This document shows, one piece after another, positions 1,074 to 32,531 of a stretch of DNA of 64,000 bases. The first letter of the stretch is position 1. Every line of letters begins with the position of its first letter. The DNA comes from an uncultured Chlorobiaceae bacterium (GTDB taxonomy: Bacteria > Bacteroidota > Chlorobiia > Chlorobiales > Chlorobiaceae), in assembly GCA_903822595.1 (NCBI GenBank), contig CAIJPS010000074.1, positions 1 through 64,000 on the forward strand, written 5' to 3'. The position numbers were made by a program, and so were the translations under genes. Under the pieces are notes generated by a model that was given only the letters and a program-made list of their open reading frames with translations, did not search any database and had not been told where the DNA came from.

Positions 1074-2126
1074 TTAATTAACTCCCGACAGCGTTGCAGA
1101 GAGACTGTCGGCCATATAATTGAGCACACGGACTGCATGTTCATAATCCATTCTTTTCGGTCCGAGAATCCCCAGTTTTCCAACCATATTTCCCACATAG
1201 TAGGGTGCTGAAACAATGGTCAGCTCTTCGGCATGACGTTCGCAGTTCTCCTTGCCGATACTGATGGTAATATCCATGCGCGACGGCCCGCTGTTTTCAA
1301 CAAGCTTGGCCATGCTGAACTTGTCTTCGATCATGGTGATAAGCTCCCGAACCTTGTCAGGCTGCTTGAATTCTGGCTGATCAACAATATATTCGGTACC
1401 GGAAATATAGAGCCGTTCAAAAATGGGCGACTCATCAAAAAGGGTACCGGCAGAGCGTACAATAAGATTTTTCAGACCACTGTCGCAACTGCAATCCGAA
1501 AGACGCCGGGTAATCGAGCGGCGGATTTCGGCAAGCGTAAGACCCGACAAACGCTGGTTGAGCATATCGACCACGCCGTCAACCGTCTGGCGGGAAACCT
1601 CAAGATCAAGTTCCATAACAATGGTCTTGACGAACAACGACTGGATGGAAAGAATCACCATCATCCTCGTCGAACTCAGCAGCACCATGTCGAGTTTCTC
1701 AAAAATTGCATTTGAGAGCGTCGGTGATAACACAACACTCAATTGCCTTGAAATTGTTCCAAGAACCTTCACTGCCGAGAGAAGAACATCGGAAGAGGTT
1801 CCTTTTCGATCGATGCTTATGACACCAACATGCTCCTCAATCCTCTTTTTTTCTTGCTCGTCAAGCGACTGAAAGGTCATGATAAGATCAACATAGTAGC
1901 GATACCCCTTGTCGGTCGGAATTCTTCCCGCAGAGGTATGCGGCTGGCTGATATAGCCTTCACTCTCAAGTTCAGCCATGACATTGCGTATCGTAGCGTC
2001 TGAAAGGCCAAGATTGTAATTTTTGGCTATATACCTTGAGCCCACCGGAGCAGCAGTCACCACATAGGCCTGGATAATAATACCAAGAACCTGTCGCTCT
2101 CTGATATTGAGATCACGAAAATCCAT
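1074..2126 (-). CDS. hrcA: Heat-inducible transcription repressor HrcA
   Basis: Repressor of class I heat-shock genes that binds CIRCE operators and is kept active by GroEL. The N-terminal winged helix contains the typical stretch [20 protein letters not shown] (about 33-52), followed by the GAF-like middle and dimerisation domains. The ATG at 2126 is preferred to the TTG one codon upstream. The protein is about 350 residues, as expected. It heads the hrcA-grpE-dnaJ operon. No CIRCE inverted repeat is visible in the 160 bases upstream, so autoregulation through that operator is not supported here. Confidence 0.96.
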
Positions 2127-2289
2127 CAACGTACACCCATAGCAATTGCAATTTAACGGTAAGAAACAAACAGGTGAATTTAAAAAAACTAATCGACTCT
2201 ACACCTTTTGCATCATCATTATAGAGAATGAGCTGTAATATAGTGCCGCCACTCTCTTTTCACGAAAAAAAGAGCGCACCCACCTTTTT

Positions 2290-3180
2290 TCAGCCTAAAG
2301 TACCGGAAATAATCCGGTCATGGCAGGAATAATCTTTTGCAACCCTGATTCCGCAAAAACCATTTGTTGCCATGAGTTCCGACACTGCCGCGGCACCGTC
2401 TGCATGAAGTTCAAAACAGAGCCTTCCTCCCGGAACGAGGAGCTTTGCTGCCTGTGCGGCAATTGCGTGGTAACACTCCAGCCCGTCAGGTGTGGTTAGC
2501 GCAATTTTCGGCTCGTACTGCTTCACCTCCTGCTGAAGAGTCTCCCATTCAAGCTCAGGAATATAGGGCGGATTGGAAACAATCAGATCATAGGCCGACT
2601 CAGGCAGCCTTGCCGCAAAGAGTTCATCGAACATATCTGCCAAAACAAATGCGACCTGCGATTCCACACCGAGCGTTGCAGCGTTTATGCCAGCAACCTC
2701 AAGGGCTCCGGAAGAGCAATCAACAGCGCTCACCCTCAGTTCAGGGCAGAGCTTCGCCAACGTAATGGCGATGCAACCGCTTCCCGTACCAATGTCAAGA
2801 ATCTTCGCTTCACGAGAGCCCCCGCAACCGGTCATACCGAGTAATTCAAGCACATGCTCGACAAGCAGTTCGGTTTCCGGACGGGGAATAAGCACCCGCT
2901 CATCAACAAAAAAGTGCAGGCCGTAAAAGTACTGCTCTCCGGTTATGTACTGCACCGGGCGCCCTTCGATCCGCTGACGGCAAAGTGCCCTGAAACGGTC
3001 AAGCTCATCGCGGTAAACCGGCCTGTTGTGCTGCAGATAGAGTTCCAGACGACTCTTGGCGAGCACATGCCCCAGAAGCAGCTCCGCACTTATGCGAGCC
3101 TCATCGACCTTTTTTGCCACAAAATAATCAGTGGTTGTTTTGAGCAATTCAACAACCTCCCACTCTTTAACCTCTTCCAT
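2290..3180 (-). CDS. prmC: Peptide chain release factor N5-glutamine methyltransferase
   Basis: PrmC/HemK methylates the glutamine of the GGQ motif in release factors 1 and 2, using S-adenosylmethionine. A helical N-terminal domain is followed by a Rossmann methyltransferase with the SAM-binding motif DIGTGSGCIAI (about 148-158) and the signature NPPYI, which holds the substrate glutamine. The protein is 296 residues from the ATG at 3180, normal length. It lies upstream of hrcA on the same strand with a 160-base gap, so it could be cotranscribed or separate. Confidence 0.95.
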   Translation of the reverse strand: MEEVKEWEVVELLKTTTDYFVAKKVDEARISAELLLGHVLAKSRLELYLQHNRPVYRDELDRFRALCRQRIEGRPVQYITGEQYFYGLHFFVDERVLIPRPETELLVEHVLELLGMTGCGGSREAKILDIGTGSGCIAITLAKLCPELRVSAVDCSSGALEVAGINAATLGVESQVAFVLADMFDELFAARLPESAYDLIVSNPPYIPELEWETLQQEVKQYEPKIALTTPDGLECYHAIAAQAAKLLVPGGRLCFELHADGAAAVSELMATNGFCGIRVAKDYSCHDRIISGTLG

Positions 3181-3379
3181 CACAAACCTTCAAGCCAAAC
3201 GTTCACGCCACTCCCTCCAGGGGAACAGCAAAAGTCATTAAGGTACACCATCGCGATCGCTCTTTAAAAAAAATCTTATCACCAGGCCATTACAAAGAGT
3301 ACATTATAGTTCACCATTGATTAACCGATACCCTGCACAACAAAAAATAAAGATAGCCCATTAACCAGGCAATGACACC

Positions 3380-4117
3380 ATGAATAAAGTTCTTCTTGCA
3401 CTGCTTCTGCTGCTGTTTACCGCTCAAAGCGCACCCGCATCAGCCGCTTCAAAATTCACGGGAATCATGGATATGGCACTGACCATGCCCAACGGTTCCG
3501 CCAAAGTCACCTACTCGTTTGGAGCAACGGCTCAACGCATGGATATGGTCATGCAGATGGACAAAATACCTGAGCCGCTCAAAACGACGGTCATCACCAA
3601 AGCATCCCGGCCCGATCAGGCCTGCATCATCAACCATCGCGCAAAAAGCTACAGCCTGGTCAACCTGAAAACTGCGGCCGAAAACGCCATGCTGCTCGAT
3701 TTCGACAGCAACTACACCCTCGCAAAGCTCGGAGGGCAAACCATAAAAGGGTACCGTTGCCAACACATCATGCTCACCAGCACCACCGAAAAACTTGAGC
3801 TCTGGGTGACCGGCGACCTTGGTAATTTCTCGACCTTCAGAATCCTTCAGTCACAAAACCCAAGGCTCTCAAACACACAACTGGCCAAAAAGCTCAGCAC
3901 GGAAGGCGTTGAGGGATTCCCCGTCAAGATCGTGCAATATAACGATAGTGGAAAATACACTATGGAACTTGTGCAACTCTGGCCAAAAACGGTTCCTGCC
4001 TCCCAATTCACAGTACCCGCAGGATACCAGCCTGTGGCCGACAACCAGAAACCGCTCGGAGCACAGGAGAAAGCGCACCTGAAAAACCTTATGGAAAAGA
4101 TGAAAAAATTTGATTAG
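3380..4117 (+). CDS. Exported DUF4412 domain protein
   Basis: 245 residues with a clear Sec signal peptide (KVLLALLLLLF core, probable cleavage after ASAA near residue 23). The mature part is a beta-rich lipoprotein-carrier-like fold of the DUF4412 kind: repeated MDM segments, a conserved YRCQHIML strand and a C-terminal PAGYQPV. There is no lipobox cysteine. Its function is unknown; related folds bind lipids or sit in the periplasm. It is a single gene between prmC and proS, transcribed divergently from prmC. Confidence 0.75.
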   Translation: MNKVLLALLLLLFTAQSAPASAASKFTGIMDMALTMPNGSAKVTYSFGATAQRMDMVMQMDKIPEPLKTTVITKASRPDQACIINHRAKSYSLVNLKTAAENAMLLDFDSNYTLAKLGGQTIKGYRCQHIMLTSTTEKLELWVTGDLGNFSTFRILQSQNPRLSNTQLAKKLSTEGVEGFPVKIVQYNDSGKYTMELVQLWPKTVPASQFTVPAGYQPVADNQKPLGAQEKAHLKNLMEKMKKFD

Positions 4118-23640: not shown

Positions 23641-25348
23641 CTAAAAGGACCGCACAGCACGAGCACGAGCACCGCGTTTTTTATCGATCTGGTTCTGGTG
23701 CCCACCGTTGAAGTTCTGTGCCCATGTTTTACCCGCGCTATCCTCCGATGAACTCCAATAACCGACGTTGTCATCCACAAAACCACCAACGACGCTTTTC
23801 TTGAGCCAAAGCTTATTCAACTGCTCTTTATTTGGTAAAAACCAGTCGCTATAGCCATTTTTTACAAGATTATCACACACTGCTTTTGCATCAAAATCTA
23901 AATATGCACCAGGTAAATAAAGAACCCCGCCGCAAGCAGCGGGGTATTTTGAAGACAAATATATAATACGTTACGCCTCAAGAGGCGGGGAATATGACCC
24001 ATAGAGATTCAAAATTAGTAGAGCGACCAGGCATATCCGATGCAGCAGCAATCAATCCATGCTGACCGGTACCATCGACATAAAAAATAATGCCCCCACC
24101 ATAGTATTCACCTATCTTATACTCGACCACCGGAACAAAGGCAAGAGATGAAACTGACTTAAGCCCAAGACGCTTTGCTTCTGCAAGTGCGGAATCGCGC
24201 TCACGCTTGATATCCTTGAGCGCAATTTGTAGGGAATCCATCGCCTTCTGTCTTGCAAGGACGGAATCCCTTTGTTTTTTGACCTTTGCAAGCTCCAACG
24301 ACTGCAATGAATCTCTCTTTTTCTGGCGCGCAACTTCTTCTCGTACTGCTTCTCCTGAATCTGACCGAGCGATCGCTGCATCACTCTTCAATATCGCTCG
24401 CGATGAATTTGAAGCACTCATAATCCCGAAAACAGCAAGAACAGCGAGCAGCAGCACCGCAACTCCAGCAATAATTCTTTTGTCAAAAGGGATTTTCGGT
24501 TTGTCACTCCGAGCATCCATGACACTGTTGATCGCCCTGATTGCCTGCATGAATTCATTGCAGTTTCCGTACCTTGCTTTGCGCTCTTTTGCTGTTGCTT
24601 TATCAACAACAGCCTGCATCCCATCTGACACATGCTCGTAGATACCCTTCATCCTCGGCAGCGGCTCAGTAACAATCCTGACCTGTACTTTAAATTCAGA
24701 GTCCGTTGTGCTATCATAGGGGGGCTTTCCGGTCAGCATCTGGTGAAGGAGGACGCCGAGGGAGTAAATGTCGGTACGCTGATCAACCTCCTCTCCATTG
24801 ACCTGTTCAGGGCTCATGTAGACGACCGTCCCGATACGGGTGCCAGTTTTTGTACCAAAACCGCCAACGCTCCCTTCGGCTATCTTTGCGATTCCGAAAT
24901 CGACAACCGTGATCTGGCTGCCTTTGGTAATGATGATGTTGGCTGGTTTTATGTCGCGATGGATAACGCCATTATCGTGGGCATAAGCAATGGCTTCAAG
25001 CAGCTTGCAAAAGAGTTCCTTCGCCTCTTTTTCAGGAATCAGTCCTCTCTGCTGTGTAAGGTACACCTCAAGGTTGACCCCATCGACGTACTCCTGTACC
25101 AGAAAAAGTGTGTTACCGTTCTCTTCATAGCGGATAAGGTGAACAATATTCGGGTGGTTCAGTTTTGCCATCAACTGCGCCTCACGACGAAAACGAAGAC
25201 GAACGTCACTGTAATCGGCAAAATGCGGGTGAAGAACCTTGATGGCCACCCGCTGACCCGTCACCTGATCCACCCCAAGGTATACACGGCTCATCCCCCC
25301 TTCGCCAAGAAGCCGCTCTATGCGGTAGTTCAGGATCTGTTGTTCCAT
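23641..25348 (-). pseudogene. Receptor kinase split inside its DUF1566 domain by a short palindromic insertion
   Basis: The first part (23978-25348, 456 residues) is an intact kinase (LGEGGMS, VAIK, HRDIKPAN, DFG, GTVVYMSPEQ), a membrane segment (about 287-307), a coiled coil (about 325-400) and the start of DUF1566 (YYGGGIIFYVDGTGQHGL). It then reads into foreign sequence and stops. The domain resumes in another frame from about 23910 down to 23641 (DFDAKAVCDNLV, DWFLPNKEQLNKLW, YWSSSEDS, ARAVRSF). The kinase half may still be made, with a truncated sensor. Confidence 0.85.
23905..24012. mobile_element. MITE- or REP-like palindromic insertion of about 100 bases
   Basis: Two GC hairpins lie in an A+T-rich spacer: ACCCCGCCGCAAGCAGCGGGGT (left) and CGCCTCAAGAGGCG followed by GGGG (right). 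The segment interrupts the DUF1566 reading frame of the surrounding kinase gene. The pattern, with CCCCGCC and GGCGGGG at the two sides and no obvious target duplication, resembles ends of IS200/IS605-type elements or REP/MITE derivatives. It encodes no transposase. The borders are approximate. Confidence 0.65.
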
Positions 25349-25554
25349 ATCTCCTTTTTGAGCAATGAACTATGACAATCGGGCAAACACAATGTAAATA
25401 ATGATATTAAACATCCAAAACACTTTATAAGGATCGGGGGAGCGAGAAAAAAAATATCCACATACTTATTGTCATTTCAATTCCGATTTGCAGTGAATCA
25501 TCTTGACATTGCACTCTTCTGATATAACGATGAGTCAACCGATTCGTCACTCGT

Positions 25555-25581
25555 CATGTTCATGTTCATGTTCATGTTCAT
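25555..25581. repeat. Tandem hexamer CATGTT
   Basis: Four and a half exact copies of CATGTT lie just past the stop of the truncated kinase-like gene (minus strand). A simple-sequence repeat outside the reading frame. Confidence 0.9.
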
Positions 25582-25591
25582 CAGACAAAAA

Positions 25592-26488
25592 TCAACAAAT
25601 GCGAGCAGCCGCGCCAACCATCAGGCTCTTTCCCAGTCTTGTCCACCACGGTTCTCCTTGAATAGATCCTTTGAGACTATTGATTGCCTGCATGAACTCT
25701 TTGCAGCTTTGGTACCGTGCACTTTTCTCTTTAGCGGTTGCTTTATCAACAATCGCCTGTATCCCACAGGAAAGGTGCTCGTTGAAACCTTTCATCCTCG
25801 GTAGTGGCTCCTTGACAATCTTGACCAGTAACTCAAATTCCGAGTAAGTACCGATATCGTATGGCGATTTGCCGGTCAGCATCTGATGCAACAGCACTCC
25901 CAACAGGTAAATATCCGTTCGTTCATCAACCTCCCGGCCATTCACCTGCTCCGGACTCTGATAAGGACTCCATCCTCTGCGCAACGGTTTTTGCGCAAAA
26001 CCACTGATACTCTCTCGAACTATTTTTTCACTACAGAAATTGATCACCTTGACCTGGTTTTCGCCAGTAACAGTAACGCTTGATGGCTGGATGCCACAAT
26101 GGATAACATCGTTTTCATGTCCATAGGCAACAACATCAAGCAACTGGCAGAACAGCGCTTTGGCCTCCTCTTCGGGAATCAGGCCACGATGGTTGATAAT
26201 GTACTCTTCAAGGTTGATCCCTTCGATGTACTCCTGCACCAGAAACAGGCAATTACCCTTCTCTTCGTATTGGATAGAACGAACAATATTGGGATGGTTC
26301 AGGCGAACCATAAACTGCGCCTCACGGCGAAAGCGCTCACGCAGATCATCAAGCGTGGCCAGATGCGGCAGCAACTCCTTGATGGCCACCCGCTGACCGG
26401 TCACAGGATCAACGCCAAGATAAACGCGGCTCATCCCCCCTTCACTAAGGAGGCGCTCAATGCGATAGTTCAGAATCTGTTGTACCAT
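25592..26488 (-). CDS. Truncated kinase-like protein with destroyed catalytic motifs (pseudokinase or decaying copy)
   Basis: 298 residues, aligned with the other cluster kinases from MVQQILNYRIERLL onward. VAIK is kept, but the catalytic HRD-IKP motif is HCG-IQP (about 130-135) and DFG is NFC (about 150-152). The activation segment has lost the GTxxYMSPEQ form (GWSPYQSPEQ). The C-lobe and the Asp of DERTDIYLLGVLLHQML remain. The reading frame ends at the membrane-anchor position, with no TM segment, stalk or lectin domain. The frame is open over the whole kinase fold, so it could be a regulatory pseudokinase, but decay after 3' truncation is equally possible. Confidence 0.8.
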   Translation of the reverse strand: MVQQILNYRIERLLSEGGMSRVYLGVDPVTGQRVAIKELLPHLATLDDLRERFRREAQFMVRLNHPNIVRSIQYEEKGNCLFLVQEYIEGINLEEYIINHRGLIPEEEAKALFCQLLDVVAYGHENDVIHCGIQPSSVTVTGENQVKVINFCSEKIVRESISGFAQKPLRRGWSPYQSPEQVNGREVDERTDIYLLGVLLHQMLTGKSPYDIGTYSEFELLVKIVKEPLPRMKGFNEHLSCGIQAIVDKATAKEKSARYQSCKEFMQAINSLKGSIQGEPWWTRLGKSLMVGAAARIC

Positions 26489-26686: not shown

Positions 26687-27148
26687 CTATAATATCAATA
26701 TCCGGCCATACCGAAAAGAACATCTCCGCCGCTGTCTGTTTTTGAGGGTAAATTTTTCCATCCGGGCATTGGGTTTGGCCAGCCTCAGCCACCACGGCGA
26801 AAGATGCTTGCGCAGCATGGAACAACGCAACGTGTAGGTGTGGTAGTGCTTCATCAGACCGAGGTAGGAGTTGATGCTGCTTTGGAAGGCCGCTCGCTCA
26901 GCATGATAGGGCTTGTGCTTTTGCGCTATACTGTTCTGTTTTACAATCGCACGATACAAGTTACCCTTGGTGCGGTTAGCAACATAGATCCTGCGCGGCT
27001 TGATGACAACGCCCAGATACTTGACTCCCTGGGAATAATGTTCAAGAACAATTTTTTTTGGATGCAGCGTTAAACCAACTTCCTGATACAGAAAGGTACG
27101 AATGATCGGTAACAAGGAATCCAGAAAAGCCTGATTTTGATGCACGAT
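26687..27148 (-). pseudogene. C-terminal remnant of a DGR-type reverse transcriptase
   Basis: About 150 residues matching the part of DGR reverse transcriptases after the catalytic motif: VHQNQAFLDSLLPIIRTFL, then GLTLHPKKIVLEHYSQGVKY, LGVVIKPRRIYVANRTKGNL, and a thumb-like SSINSYLGLMKHYHTYTLR. The palm domain with YxDD is missing. At about 27145 the sequence switches into the first codons of avd, in another frame. The enzyme is therefore dead at this locus. The assignment to the DGR class rests on these motifs and on the adjacent avd stubs and variable regions. Confidence 0.8.
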
Positions 27149-27188
27149 ACACGTCTCGATACACCGGTAAATCATAGTACAATGCCAT
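27145..27188 (-). pseudogene. avd: 5' stub of avd joined to the reverse transcriptase remnant
   Basis: The first 15 codons (MALYYDLPVYRDVYR) are identical to the longer avd copy beginning at 29668. The sequence then joins RT DNA out of frame. In DGRs the usual order is VR, avd, template repeat, RT. The deletion between avd codon 15 and the RT C-terminus therefore probably removed the template repeat as well. Confidence 0.75.
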
Positions 27189-27206
27189 ACCACAAAATTA
27201 TTTTTG

Positions 27207-27226
27207 ACAGGGGGCGAGCCCCCTGT
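27207..27226 (-). other. GC-rich hairpin downstream of variable region 1
   Basis: Perfect palindromic arms ACAGGGGG / CCCCCTGT with a four-base loop, 26 bases past the kinase stop codon. DGR targets characteristically have a short GC hairpin just 3' of the variable region that promotes retrohoming. An equivalent hairpin follows variable region 2. It could also act in termination. Confidence 0.75.
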
Positions 27227-27252
27227 ACCCCCCTGTGAAATGGTTAAATAGA

Positions 27253-28803
27253 TTAATGGGTAAAAGCCCGCACAGCCCGAACCCGACCGCTGAGCGACTT
27301 ATCGAACTGGTTCTGGCCCCCACCGTCGAAGTACTGGTACCATGCGTTACCCGCACCGTCCTCCGTAGAACTCCAGTAGTAGTCACCCGCAAAACCGCCA
27401 ACAACACTACGCTTTTTATACAATTCATTCAACTCTCCTTTGGTTGGAAGATGCCAATCGCTAAAACCACCAGCCACAAGATTATTACATGCATTTTTTG
27501 CGTCAGTCCAGAAAAAGCACCCATCACCACAACCATCGGAATGGCCCGGAATATCCGATCTTGCGGCAATCAAACCGCGCTGGCCGGTTGCATCCACATA
27601 AAAAATGATCCCTCCGCCATACCGCTCGCCGACCTCATGCCTTTTCACAGCAGCTTCAGGAGCTGGAGCTGTTACCGGGTTGCGACGCAGACGATCGGCC
27701 AACGCGATTGCCTCGTCACGCTCACGCCGTAGCTTTGCATTCTCGTCCTGACGCGCCTTTTCGAGCCTCCGCTCTTCTGCTTTTCGCAACTCCTCCCTTT
27801 TTATAGCGGCTGAATCTACAGCCACCACAACCGATGAAGCAGCAGGAGCGGCAACTGGCGATTCCACAGGCAGCTCAGCACGCTTTGAGGCAAGATTGTA
27901 CGCGAAAAGGCTTACAATAATGAGCAGCAGCACAGCCACCCCGGCAAGGAGTCGCCAGTCCGGTTTCAAAGGTGGAGGGGGCGGTGGAGGTATTTTGACC
28001 GCCTTGACTGCCCGCAAAAACTCCTCGCAGCTCTGATAGCGCTTGTTACGATCTTTCGCTGTTGCCTTGTCGACAATGGACTGCATCTCTTTTGAAACAT
28101 ACTCGTAGATGCCCTTCATCCTTGGAAGCGGCTCCGTGACAATCCTCTTCTTTATCTTGAACTCATTTTCCGTTGCAGTGATGGTATAGGGTGCCTTGCC
28201 GGTAAGCATCTGGTGCAGCACCACACCAAGGGAATAGATATCGGTGCGCCGGTCAAGCTTCTCGCCAAGGACCTGCTCCGGGCTCATGTAGGAGGGCGTA
28301 CCAATACCGGTTCCGGTCTTCGATTCCGTTACCGTATCGCTCTCTTTGGAAATGCCGAAGTCCACAACCGTGATCTCCTTCCCGTCTCTCATCAGGATAT
28401 TGGCCGGCTTGATGTCGCGATGGATAACCTCATGCTGGTGCACATAGCCAATGGCTTCGAGCAGTTTGCCGAACAGCTCTTTGGCCTCCTCTTCGGGAAT
28501 GGGGCCGCGATGGTTGGTGATGTACTCTTCAAGGTTGATCCCTTCGATATACTCCTGCACCAGCAGCAATTCGCTCTCTTCGTAGCGGATGAGCCGCACA
28601 ATGTTGGGATGGTTCAGTTTTGCCAGCAACCGCGCCTCTCGGCGAAAGAGCATGCGTACCTGATCATGCTGTGCAAACTCTGGATGCAGCACCTTGATGG
28701 CCACTTTCTGGCCGGTCACCGGATCAACGCCAAGCCAAACCCGGCTCATCCCCCCTTCGCCAAGGAGCCCCTCTATGCGATAGTTCAGTATCTGTTGTTC
28801 CAT
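27253..28803 (-). CDS. Transmembrane Ser/Thr kinase with DUF1566 domain ending in DGR variable region 1
   Basis: 516 residues from the ATG at 28803, preferred because it matches the MEQQILNYRIE start of all paralogues. The kinase domain has LGEGGMS, VAIK, HRDIKPAN, DFG and GTPSYMSPEQ. A polyproline linker, one membrane segment (about 285-305), a coiled coil of K/E/R-rich sequence (about 330-375) and DUF1566 (about 388-516: YGGGIIFYVDATGQRGL, CFFWTDAKNACNNL, WHLPTKGELNELY, YYWSSTEDG) follow. The last 45 codons form variable region 1. The best candidate in the window for a complete, working diversified receptor kinase. Confidence 0.94.
   Translation of the reverse strand: MEQQILNYRIEGLLGEGGMSRVWLGVDPVTGQKVAIKVLHPEFAQHDQVRMLFRREARLLAKLNHPNIVRLIRYEESELLLVQEYIEGINLEEYITNHRGPIPEEEAKELFGKLLEAIGYVHQHEVIHRDIKPANILMRDGKEITVVDFGISKESDTVTESKTGTGIGTPSYMSPEQVLGEKLDRRTDIYSLGVVLHQMLTGKAPYTITATENEFKIKKRIVTEPLPRMKGIYEYVSKEMQSIVDKATAKDRNKRYQSCEEFLRAVKAVKIPPPPPPPLKPDWRLLAGVAVLLLIIVSLFAYNLASKRAELPVESPVAAPAASSVVVAVDSAAIKREELRKAEERRLEKARQDENAKLRRERDEAIALADRLRRNPVTAPAPEAAVKRHEVGERYGGGIIFYVDATGQRGLIAARSDIPGHSDGCGDGCFFWTDAKNACNNLVAGGFSDWHLPTKGELNELYKKRSVVGGFAGDYYWSSTEDGAGNAWYQYFDGGGQNQFDKSLSGRVRAVRAFTH
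27256..27400 (-). other. DGR variable region 1 (VR1)
   Basis: 3' end of the kinase DUF1566 domain, from the VVGGF codons to the stop. Aligned with VR2, the outer bases on both sides are identical, while the 70-base core has 18 substitutions. On the coding strand 14 of these have A in one copy and the other four (C/G, T/G three times) have A in neither, all compatible with an adenine in a shared template. Fixed residues are WSSTE, AW, F and RVRAVRAF. Confidence 0.85.
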
Positions 28804-29017
28804 TATCTCTTTTTTATGCAATAAGCTCTGGCCATAAGGAAGTGACAAGGTAAACAATGCAAATAAACCGACAAAACAGGGAGGAAAAATCAGGTTACTT
28901 TCAAGAAACATCACGTTATCCTGAATGAGCCCGCACACGACAATTGGAACGGTAATCACTGAACTCTATCTTGCCTGTTCACGATGACGTGAGGATGAAA
29001 GCTTTTTGGAATCAATC
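28804..29017. repeat. Kinase leader and former AlbA-gene 5' region, copy 1
   Basis: This stretch is about nine-tenths identical to 31218-31430. It contains the kinase ribosome-binding region, then the segment that also precedes the intact ATP-binding gene at 32.72-32.82 kb (TGCCTGTTCACGATGACG shared). The coding part of that gene is absent here except for its tail. No intact gene lies in it. Confidence 0.8.
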
Positions 29018-29073
29018 TCATCGACGACCGGCGCGGCAATCAGTTTAAAGCCATTATCAGGCGAATCACATAA
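29018..29073 (+). pseudogene. 3' remnant of an AlbA_2-type ATP-binding gene, copy 1
   Basis: Encodes IDDRRGNQFKAIIRRIT followed by a stop, identical in sequence to the C-terminus of the intact gene ending at 33986. The rest of that gene has been deleted from this copy. Confidence 0.85.
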
Positions 29074-29139
29074 AGAATCTGGCAGCCTTGCTTGAAGCTG
29101 AGTATCTGTTGTAGCAGAAATCCATCGCCTGTCAATTCT

Positions 29140-29478
29140 TTATGAGGGGTCAGCGTTCCTGAACACAGCTTCCAGAGTCGGAGCTGTGAAAATTGCTTTA
29201 GCCCAAGCTTCCAGCTCCTCTTCCCTGGCGGGTACTAATTGCTCAGCGGCCCACTCGGGCAACACGCCAAAGCGATGTTCAAGCAACTTTTGCAGCAGGC
29301 TGGATTTGCCCTCAACATGACCTTCAACACGGCCCTCGACACGGCCCTTGGCTATGCCAATTCTTTCCACGCTCGAAATGTATTGCACTTTTTCTCTCTC
29401 CTCAATTGTTTCAAGTTCTTGCCAGACCTTATTATTCAACCACTCCGGCAACTGCATCAGCCAGTCGATCACATTGTT
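29140..29478 (-). pseudogene. 3' fragment of an Rpn-family nuclease gene, fused to truncated avd
   Basis: Encodes the C-terminal about 112 residues of the Rpn/PDDEXK-type protein that is complete at 31566-32531 (NVIDWLMQLPEWLNNKVWQE, KVQYISSVERIGIAKG, VEGR repeats, LLEHRFGVLPEW). The catalytic N-terminal domain is missing. At about 29478 the homology ends and antisense avd sequence begins. Not expected to be active. Confidence 0.85.
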
Positions 29479-29668
29479 CAAGATACTCCGTCTTGCTTTT
29501 GGCCTTGTTGGCCCTGTAAATGCTGCGCACCAGCACAAGGCTGTCACGCTTGAGATCCTGACCAAGGGTATACTTGTATTCTCGCGGAAAATCTTTGGTG
29601 TACTCAAAAATTTTCAGAATAAGTCGATACACGTCTCGATACACCGGTAAATCATAGTACAATGCCAT
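29432..29668 (-). pseudogene. avd: Truncated DGR accessory protein Avd (four-helix bundle family)
   Basis: 78 residues. The first 64 (MALYYDLPVYRDVYRLILKI, FEYTKDFPREYKYTLGQDLK, RDSLVLVRSIYRANKAKSK) match the N-terminal half of the Avd/bAvd four-helix bundle proteins that bind DGR reverse transcriptase and template RNA. After TEYLEQ the frame runs into sequence from the Rpn gene (CDRLADAVAGVVE) and stops. Full proteins are about 110-130 residues, so the C-terminal helices are lost. It lies directly downstream of VR2, the expected DGR position. Confidence 0.85.
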
Positions 29669-29686
29669 ACCACAAAATTATTTTTG

Positions 29687-29707
29687 ACAGGGGGCTAAGC
29701 CCCCTGT
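29687..29707 (-). other. GC-rich hairpin downstream of variable region 2
   Basis: Arms ACAGGGGGC / GCCCCCTGT with a three-base loop, 27 bases past the VR2 stop codon. Same position and arms as the VR1 hairpin, but the loop differs (TTA against CTCG context), so the loop has diverged while the stem is kept. Confidence 0.75.
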
Positions 29708-29733
29708 ACCCCCCTGTAAAATGGTTAAATGGA

Positions 29734-29880
29734 TTAATGGGTAAAAGCCCGCACAGCCCGAACCCGACCGTCGTCCGCCTCACCGTCCTGGCCCTGGTCC
29801 CCATCGTTGAAGTCCTGGTTCCATGCGTAACCCGCACCGCCCTCCGTAGAACTCCAGTAGTTGCCTCCGCAAAACCGCCA
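29734..29880 (-). other. DGR variable region 2 (VR2), with a one-base deletion
   Basis: Homologous to VR1. In the restored frame it reads NYWSSTEGGAGYAWNQDF, then N, D, G, D, Q residues, and ends RVRAVRAFTH, with the stop at 29734-29736. Relative to VR1 one base is missing just before the conserved TACTGG, which shifts the kinase out of frame. The missing base falls where the inferred template would have a run of adenines. Confidence 0.85.
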
Positions 29881-31217
29881 ACAACACTACGCTTTTTATA
29901 CAATTTATTCAGTTCCTCTTTGGTTGGAAGACGCCAATCACTGTGGCCACCTATTACAAGATTATTACACGCATTTTTTGCGTCATTCCAGATAAAGAAC
30001 CCTTCAGGCGAATCTGCAGAGTGGCCCCGCATATCCGATGGAGCGGCAATCAAACCTCGCTGGCCGGTTGCATCCACATAAAAAATGATCCCTCCGCCAT
30101 ACCGCTCGCCTATCTTATGCGTTATCACTTCAGGTACAGGCGCTGGCGCTTCACTGATTTGAGGGAGGGGATCAACAGCCACGGGAACTGGTGGCGCAAC
30201 GGCAACTGGTGGAACAACAGCAACAGGAGCTGGAAAGGGCGCTTCAAAAGGTGGTTCAACAGGCGCTTCCACACGCTTTGGCATAAAATTGAGCGCGAAG
30301 AGACTTACCATAATGAGCAGGAGCACACCCGCTCCAGCCATGACCCGCTTGTCGCGCAGCCACTCACGCCAGTCCGGTTTCGAGGGTGACGGTGGCGATT
30401 CTTTGACCGCCTTGACAGCCCGCAAAAACTCTTCGCAGCTCTGATAGCGCCTGTTGCGATCTTTCGCTGTTGCCTTGTCGACAACGGCCTGCATCCCTGA
30501 CGACACATACTCGTAGATGCCTTTCATCCTCGGAAGCGGCTCCTGTACTATCTTGAGCTGGATGTCGAACAGTGACTCCGTTTCTGTATCGTAGGGCGGC
30601 TTGCCTGTCAGCATCTGGTGCAGCAGCACGCCCAGCGAATAGATGTCGGTGCGATGGTCTATCTTTTCTCCAGGGTTGCTCTTGATCTGCTCAGGGCTCA
30701 TGTAAAGAACCGTTCCCATGCGGGTGCCGGTAGAGGTATCGCGTCCGGTTTCCGTGTCTTTTGCTATCCCGAAATCGACCACCTTGATATGGTTTCCCCG
30801 CGTCATCAGAATATTGGCCGGCTTGATGTCGCGATGGATGACCTTGTTGCTGTGCACGTAGGCAAAGGCCTCGAGCATCTTGCAGAAGAGTTCCTTGGCC
30901 TCCTCTTCAGGAATGGGGCCGCGATGATGCGTGATATACTCCTCAAGATCCATCCCGTCAATGTACTGCTGCACCAACACCAACTGCTCCGGGTTGTAAT
31001 CGACGAGCATCACAATGCCGGGATGATCAAGCTTTGCCAGCGACTCGGCCTCCTAAAGAAAGAGAGCGCGAATCTTGTTGTGTTCGGCAAGGTGCGGATG
31101 CAGCACCTTGATGGCCACCCGTTGGCCGGTCACGGGATCAACGCCAAGATAGACCCGGCTCATACCCCCTTCACCAAGAAGCCGGTCTATGCGGTATTTC
31201 AGTATCTGTTGTTCCAT
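29734..31217 (-). pseudogene. Receptor Ser/Thr kinase disabled by a nonsense codon and a frameshift
   Basis: Starts MEQQILKYRIDRLLGEGGMS at 31217 with a good AAGGAG site. An in-frame TAG (31053-31055) follows ALFL at codon 55, where the paralogues have an arginine codon. The frame then continues intact through HRDIKPAN, DFG, GTVLYMSPEQ, a membrane segment, a P/V/A-rich stalk and DUF1566 (YGGGIIFYVDATGQRGL, FFIWNDAKNACNNL, WRLPTKEELNKLY). A second lesion, a one-base deletion in VR2, shifts the last 40 codons so that the frame runs on to 29652. Both lesions argue for an inactive copy. Confidence 0.88.
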
Positions 31218-31430
31218 TATCTCCTTTTTGTACAATAAGCTCTGGCCATAAGGAAGTAACAAGGTAAACAATGCAAATAAACCGACAAAACAGGGAGGAA
31301 AAATCAGGTTACTTTCCAGAAACATCTCGTTATCCTGTATGAGCCTGCACACGACAATTGGAAAGGTAATCACTGAACTCTATCTTGCCTGTTCACGATG
31401 AAGGGGGGATGAAAGCTTTTTGGAATCAAT
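31218..31430. repeat. Kinase leader and former AlbA-gene 5' region, copy 2
   Basis: Near-identical to 28804-29017. It includes the kinase ribosome-binding region, the shared GGAGGAAAAATCAGGTTACT stretch and the upstream region of the ATP-binding gene, with the same internal deletion joining it to the tail of that gene. Confidence 0.8.
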
Positions 31431-31489
31431 ATCTCATCGACGACCGGCGCGGCAATCAGTTTAAAGCCATTATCAGGCGGATCACATAA
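31431..31489 (+). pseudogene. 3' remnant of an AlbA_2-type ATP-binding gene, copy 2
   Basis: Encodes IDDRRGNQFKAIIRRIT and a stop codon, as in copy 1 and in the intact gene. The sequence just before the remnant (GAAAGCTTTTTGGAATCAAT) is shared with copy 1, so the same deletion was present before duplication. Confidence 0.85.
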
Positions 31490-31565
31490 AGAATCTGGCA
31501 GCCTTGCTTGACGCTGAGTATCTGTTGTAGCAGAAATTTATCGCCTGTCAATTCTTTATGAGGGG

Positions 31566-32531
31566 TCAGTGTTCGCGGAAAACAGCCTCCAGAGTTGGAG
31601 CCGTAAAAATTGCTTTACCCCAAGCCTCCAGCTCCTCTTCCTTGGCGCGTACTAATTGCTCAACGGCCCACTCGGGCAACACGCCAAAGCGATGTTCAAG
31701 CAACTTTTGCAGCAGGTTGGATTTGCCCTCAACATGGCCCTCAACACGACCCTCAACACGACCCTCGACACGGCCCTTGGCTATGCCAATTCTCTCTACG
31801 CTCGAAATGTATTGCACTTTTTCTTTCTCCTCAATTGTTTCAAGTTCTTGCCAGACCTTATTATTCAACCACTCCGGCAACTGCATCAGCCAGTCGATCA
31901 CATTGAATAAATTGATAACGCGCTGTTTCTCCCAATGCCTTTCATACAGTATCCGCAGCAGGCTAAGTTTCGCGTTGTACCGTTCCTCATCCTGCGTTTT
32001 GGTTTTTTGTGTCAAAATGTGTGCCGCCGTAATCCATCCAAAGGCGTTATCCGACGCAAGAAGTTCATCAAGTTTGTCTTCGTAATCGGTCAGTTTGGCA
32101 ACCGGGAACTCCAGCGTATGGCGGCATCCCAGCACAGAAAAACCATAAGAGGCCGGTTTCCACATCTTGTGTTCATCGGCGAGCACAGCCAAACTTGCTA
32201 CAGGCCTTTTGTAGCGGTCAAAAATCCGGTAGTTGTACACAAACATTCGTTCGGCAAACTCAGACTGCCTTTTGCCCTGCACTTCAACGTGGATGTAGAT
32301 CCAGCTTTCAATGCCACAAAGCTCGGTCACCCTGACCAGCTTGTCAACATAGCGTGTGCCCAGTTCAGCATCCTGCACCACCGCCCGCAACTCTTTATCC
32401 AAAAAAATATGCTCCTTCGCCCAATCAATTTGGGCATAAGCATCCGGGAAATAAAACGACATAAACTCAGAAAAATATTGCTCTATAGCCTCCTTCCACG
32501 GGCTGTCGTAACGATCATTCGCGCTCTCCAT
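31566..32531 (-). CDS. Rpn-family recombination-promoting nuclease / putative transposase
   Basis: 321 residues. The N-terminal PD-(D/E)XK-type domain of the Rpn (transposase_31-like) family starts SPWKEAIEQYFSEFMSFYFP; conserved residues lie around DKLVRVTELCG and IYIHVEVQGKRQSEFAERMF, where E-x-Q replaces the usual E-x-K. The C-terminal part has tandem VEGR repeats (about 244-260) and a DUF4351-like ending (LLEHRFGVLPEWAVEQL). Rpn proteins cut DNA and are linked to recombination or phage defence. Two truncated copies flank it at 29.1 and 34.1 kb. Confidence 0.88.
   Translation of the reverse strand: MESANDRYDSPWKEAIEQYFSEFMSFYFPDAYAQIDWAKEHIFLDKELRAVVQDAELGTRYVDKLVRVTELCGIESWIYIHVEVQGKRQSEFAERMFVYNYRIFDRYKRPVASLAVLADEHKMWKPASYGFSVLGCRHTLEFPVAKLTDYEDKLDELLASDNAFGWITAAHILTQKTKTQDEERYNAKLSLLRILYERHWEKQRVINLFNVIDWLMQLPEWLNNKVWQELETIEEKEKVQYISSVERIGIAKGRVEGRVEGRVEGHVEGKSNLLQKLLEHRFGVLPEWAVEQLVRAKEEELEAWGKAIFTAPTLEAVFREH
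31735..31785 (-). repeat. In-frame 12-base repeat in the Rpn gene
   Basis: Encodes GRVEGRVEGRVEGHVEG. The copy at 29.3 kb has one unit fewer (GRVEGRVEGHVEG), so the repeat number varies between paralogues without breaking the frame. Confidence 0.8.

Follow-up and report, generated by a model that had tools for sequence, protein, structure and literature searches.

Probable relic of a bAvd-type DGR with surviving kinase target genes in an uncultured Chlorobiaceae bacterium

Results

Layout of the locus

The window analysed here is a stretch of 64,000 nucleotides at the start of contig C74 (CAIJPS010000074.1, with the same coordinates), which belongs to the draft genome of an uncultured Chlorobiaceae bacterium (G000; 109 contigs, 3.04 Mb, 97.6% complete). 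For comparison, 86 genomes of the family Chlorobiaceae were searched. Read along the minus strand, the locus consists of an Rpn-type gene, kinase A with VR-A, a hairpin, avd codons 1–64, an Rpn tail, kinase B with VR-B, a second hairpin, 44 nt of avd and an RT tail, i.e.:

31566..32531, minus strand: complete Rpn-type gene (ORF with weak family matches), the upstream partner of a duplication, its 3′ part being homologous to the sequence from 29476 onward
29477..31905, minus strand: tandem copy 1 of a 2,429-bp unit (Rpn 3′ part, kinase A, VR-A, hairpin, avd codons 1–64), from self-alignment
27145..29476, minus strand: tandem copy 2, cut at avd nt 44 by a deletion (Rpn tail, kinase B, VR-B, hairpin, 44 nt of avd), from self-alignment
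29652..31373, minus strand: kinase A – Lcl_C target gene (a serine/threonine kinase fused to Lcl_C, as is kinase B), broken (ORFs; Pfam Pkinase and Lcl_C)
29743..29882, minus strand: VR-A core of 140 nt (141 in relatives), ending in CGGGCTTTT
29687..29707, minus strand: DGR-type hairpin ACAGGGGG-CTTAG-CCCCCTGT after VR-A
29477..29668, minus strand: avd codons 1–64, cut off at the duplication joint (profile matches, relatives, self-alignment)
29140..29476, minus strand: Rpn 3′ tail, beginning exactly at the joint (self-alignment)
27253..28959, minus strand: kinase B – Lcl_C target gene with an intact reading frame (ORF; family profiles)
27262..27402, minus strand: VR-B core of 141 nt, ending in CGGGCTTTT
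27207..27226, minus strand: DGR-type hairpin ACAGGGGG-CTCG-CCCCCTGT after VR-B
27145..27188, minus strand: avd stub B, the first 44 nt of the gene (comparison with intact relatives)
26687..27144, minus strand: C-terminal tail of a DGR RT, from just past YVDD to the stop codon (PHROG, RTs of relatives)

Downstream of the RT tail (window 23641–26488), two more kinase genes were observed, one of which is truncated and carries no VR, while the second holds an old VR in another frame, after which no hairpin was found.

Intact relatives and the extent of the deletion

In ten genomes of the family (G029, G059, G062, G064, G065, G066, G069, G073, G074, and G084), a distance of about 1.5 kb separates avd from a matching RT, and the interval holds a TR rich in AAC (141 nt in most), giving an intact order of VR / hairpin / avd / TR / RT. 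This is the undeleted arrangement that the preliminary description had proposed to look for in relatives, and it bears out its premise that the TR of an intact DGR sits between avd and RT. Ten VRs from these relatives differ from their own TR at 14–24 adenines and at most 2 other sites. VRs end in CGGGCTTTT where TRs end in CGGGGTTTT.

With L083, one of the intact systems, as the yardstick, the window is short of about 1.45 kb: the gap opens at avd nt 44 and closes at the RT codon that follows YVDD, and its two ends have about 1 bp in common. Most of avd, the entire TR and the RT palm are missing, and no TR was found between the remaining pieces. The alignment to L083 thus confirmed the earlier view of a collapsed core (i.e., an RT tail, avd pieces and no TR) from which exactly the TR and the RT palm had been deleted.

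The avd/RT joint could alternatively be an assembly artefact or a minority haplotype, with many cells still carrying an intact core after VR-B. Indeed, the joint coincides exactly with the end of a perfect repeat of 71 nt, and long reads have revealed intact variants of loci that appeared degenerate in the assembly of Thiohalocapsa PB-PSB1 (PMC10907252). However, a chimera should have left the matching TR and the N-terminal part of the RT on another contig, and neither could be found anywhere in the G000 assembly. Moreover, 71 nt is short enough for read pairs to span, and the related genome G074 also has no core after VR-B, with a different breakpoint. An artefact or a minority haplotype at this joint is therefore considered unlikely.

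Identity of the RT tail

The RT-tail ORF (27193..26687, minus strand) matched PHROG 1423 reverse transcriptase over residues 15–146 (E 2.6e-14), while its residues 15–64 matched the end of RVT_1, below the cut-off of that profile. It is 56–78% identical to the RTs adjoining avd and TR in the ten relatives (71–78% in nine of the ten), and since it begins after YVDD, the catalytic palm (YxDD) is absent, as had been proposed from the DNA alone. The tail groups with bAvd-type RTs and apart from HRDC-type DGR RTs, on its own branch with modest support, and its closest named relatives stem from two uncultured Chlorobiaceae MAGs, which marks the host as a green sulfur bacterium. A closer affinity to group II intron or retron RTs, which would have undermined the DGR assignment, was not observed: NCBIfam returned no such match for the tail, its best matches were DGR RTs, and it has no match among the group-II-like RTs of G000. 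No relative of the tail was found among solved structures. The nearest phage RTs are only 36–40% identical over the tail, which speaks against a phage-borne copy. With up to 98% identity to intact systems, the locus is not a chance resemblance.

The matching template and the other RTs of G000

Judging from six VRs, the missing TR, itself never seen, is expected to have the 3′ end ...GGTCGGGTTCGGGCTGTGCGGGGTTTT. When this expected end was searched with up to 2 mismatches among the 86 family genomes, only VR forms were recovered (in G000, G061, G066, G068, and G074), and neither the window, nor the G000 assembly, nor the 86 family genomes yielded a TR to match the window VRs. Candidates within G000 could all be discarded: VR-like matches on C10, C83, C20, and C29 are A-poor and end in the VR form CGGGCTTTT, and those on C94, C19, and C46 are partial only and likewise A-poor. 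A phage-borne copy was discarded as well, with no exact match of the TR/VR 3′ sequence in viral contigs.

The RVT_1 profile detected five RTs in G000, three of which appear by reading not to be of the DGR kind (one putative Cas1-like fusion and two group-II-like RTs). The first of these (L001, C83:76267-79881, at 1294-3477) is a 727-residue RT with a C-terminal half that reads as Cas1-like, and is likely an RT-Cas1 fusion. As for the DGR RTs, the one on C63 matches PHROG 1423 and has an HRDC-domain neighbour, and C28 shows the same layout; both belong to complete HRDC-type DGRs (L031 on C63, 4373-7998, and L032 on C28, 779-6556). Their VR mismatches fall at template adenines in 15/15, 21/21, and 15/15 cases, with 15/21 for a fourth VR, and their targets look, by reading, like formylglycine-enzyme-type proteins. 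The TRs of these two DGRs showed no similarity to the window VRs.

The preliminary description had left two options for the window VRs: they are orphaned, or a complete DGR located elsewhere serves them in trans. Service in trans gains some credit from the two complete DGRs of G000, whose VRs differ from their TRs almost only at adenines, so that DGR activity is, or recently was, present, and from the complete bAvd DGR retained at argG in G074 and G066. Nevertheless, the search for an intact avd and RT with a matching template elsewhere in G000 yielded only these two HRDC-type systems, which are of another type and have unrelated TRs; the expected TR 3′ sequence occurs in G000 only in its VR form, and argG of G000 keeps merely a target, a hairpin and a VR scrap. 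Diversification in trans is thus not supported and seems improbable, and as far as the G000 assembly shows, the window VRs are orphans. Given that this assembly is a draft, an intact core could be absent from it.

The avd pieces and the tandem duplication

The longer avd piece (29668..29477) spans exactly 192 nt, or 64 codons, with Rpn sequence from 29476 on. Its identity as Avd follows from PHROG 3206 (E 2.3e-12), NCBIfam DivGenRetAVD (1.8e-9) and Pfam bAvd (9e-9), the latter two scoring under their curated cut-offs, as expected for a fragment. The shorter piece (44 nt, 27188..27145) is followed by RT sequence in a different frame, in line with the 15-codon stub joined out of frame that had been described previously. 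Avd is hence incomplete at both sites, with 64 and 14–15 codons vs. about 117.

Either the 78-residue avd fragment or the RT tail might nonetheless have been retained as a functional protein. The avd fragments of G000 and G074 differ by three silent changes and one replacement change, that of G074 is identical to the intact G065 Avd across 64 residues, and the RT-tail frame is free of stops. These four changes are, however, too few to show selection on the fragment, and the event may be recent. Furthermore, such proteins would be an Avd without its last 45% and an RT without its active site, making retained function very improbable.

Past avd codon 64, the sequence repeats the Rpn 3′ part and the kinase unit in colinear order, its homology in the self-alignment opening at the joint base, avd nt 193. 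The avd(64)/Rpn joint is thus that of a head-to-tail duplication of the 2,429-bp unit, which runs from inside Rpn to avd codon 64. The same joint and both kinase copies are present in G074 (C338; L093, L119), over 4.5 kb at 91.9% identity, so the duplication predates the split of G000 and G074. Identity between copies 1 and 2 amounts to 91–99% towards the ends and 51–90% inside the kinase, and this unevenness makes some exchange with other kinase paralogs likely, blurring the duplication. The earlier claim of a 64-codon avd fused to an Rpn tail consequently holds to the codon, but not its reading as a second, separately collapsed core: although this avd fragment does follow a VR and a hairpin, no RT piece accompanies the fusion, and a colinear Rpn-kinase copy opening at the base after codon 64 is what a tandem duplication leaves, so that two separate core collapses were ruled out as scarcely credible.

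Rewriting of the VRs

With the TR of L083 as adenine map, VR-A was found to differ between G000 and G074 at 23 of the 46 template-adenine sites vs. 1 of 94 others (p 1e-12), and VR-B at 17 of 46 vs. 3 of 95 (p 3e-7). Most of the blocks flanking these VRs are at least 90% identical, with a few at 73–89%. The kinase VRs were real DGR targets. VR-A was therefore still being altered at a time when the duplication had already deprived it of a complete avd, and it would most simply have been served by the core that then remained after VR-B. Kinase A of G000 carries a stop codon (after ...RALFL; 31053) and a 1-nt deletion in VR-A (about 29865) that stands uncorrected, neither of which occurs in G074.

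While an IMH-like end and the hairpin are present at both VR-A and VR-B, no hairpin was found after the TRs of the relatives. Many dispersed VRs are followed by the hairpin and by an avd start that is truncated or decayed, a combination seen behind no TR. This suggests, as a pattern in the sequences and not as a mechanism, that targets may have spread as VR-hairpin-avd′ blocks. VRs of the window type are carried by kinase and other genes of five Chlorobiaceae genomes.

Core loss in relatives and at argG

In G074, homology ends at the avd start after VR-B and is followed by an FHA-domain-like gene, indicating that the core was lost there at another breakpoint. G068 (99% complete) carries two window-type VRs and one other RT, and no matching RT tail or avd was found in it at the thresholds used. 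At argG, where G066 and G074 keep their complete bAvd DGR, the G000 remnant (L026, C20, 2259-3558) comprises a target, a hairpin and a 139-nt VR scrap with, by reading, PIN-like genes in between, and homology ends at the avd start codon.

C-terminal RT scraps without the remainder of the RT were encountered in G057, G031, and G061 (with stops). That of G031 (L096, C14, 1268-3150) lies between two TIR-VR genes by argG, with toxin-antitoxin-like small genes replacing the core. In G054 (L091, C12, 28-1410), avd and TR are intact and the RT lacks about 195 N-terminal residues, while G078 keeps avd without a matching RT. Several relatives therefore carry broken cores, lost separately at different breakpoints, with the proviso that contigs of these drafts often break at VRs and single cases need care.

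Discussion

The locus is very probably the relic of a bAvd-type DGR that went through a duplication, VR rewriting and then a single core deletion in the G000 lineage. From its anatomy and joints, the intact order in relatives, the adenine-restricted differences and the lack of a matching TR in the assembly, we infer both this order of events and a halt of mutation. The ancestral order would have been Rpn / kinase-VR / hairpin / avd / TR / RT. Before the split of G000 and G074, the 2.43-kb unit would have been doubled head to tail, resulting in two kinase targets, one core and the avd(64)/Rpn joint. After the split, both VRs would have been rewritten at template adenines by this core or by a further copy sharing its template, until in the G000 lineage a single deletion of about 1.45 kb presumably brought avd nt 44 up against the RT just past YVDD. 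VR-B would thereby have become a frozen but readable variant, with kinase A and VR-A decaying.

Four complete bAvd-type Chlorobiaceae DGRs (L083, L084, L085, and L086) share with the window type the avd and RT families, the 141-nt VR, the hairpin and the VR end CGGGCTTTT vs. the TR end CGGGGTTTT, but unlike the window they possess a TR, a full avd and a full RT. Their TRs show 10–15 conserved non-adenine differences from the window-type VRs. The DGR of Bordetella phage BPP-1, an intact and active system that targets a phage tail fibre, has the order avd, TR, RT, as in these relatives. An inverted repeat after its VR provides a further likeness (target-site work: PMC3240598).

Degenerate DGR loci have already been published, and the window is another one. 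In Thiohalocapsa PB-PSB1, such loci have lost key machinery or hold it as pseudogenes, yet VR target genes, including those with protein-kinase and TIR domains, are kept (PMC10907252), which resembles the broken machinery and surviving VR targets of the window. Some VRs of its broken loci match no TR in the genome (PMC10907252); others match a TR elsewhere and are apparently served in trans, in contrast to the window VRs, for which no matching TR was found in either the assembly or the family. A further difference is that the deletion ends of the window can be placed through intact relatives. Among green sulfur bacteria, Chlorobium phaeobacteroides and Pelodictyon phaeoclathratiforme have several VRs per RT, although these were listed from RT-bearing systems and not from relics such as the window (PMC3521204). 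DGR surveys note that remote targets get missed (PMC8144416).

The added value of the window lies in its intact and independently broken relatives, which allow both the duplication and the deletion to be placed to the base. It shows the death of a DGR with its targets surviving, both deletion ends being placed against intact relatives, and it points to about 86 related genomes in which one can trace how DGRs of this kind are gained, act and are lost. Tentatively, the window-type VR family may have outlived its mutator, no matching TR having been found in the carrier genomes: cores might repeatedly have been lost through deletions that began at the VR hairpin or the avd start, reached into the RT and spared the flanking targets, such that lineages would diversify their sensors for a time and then freeze a chosen set. 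If this loss was indeed repeated and selected, the freezing of hypervariable sensors by discarding the mutator would become testable.
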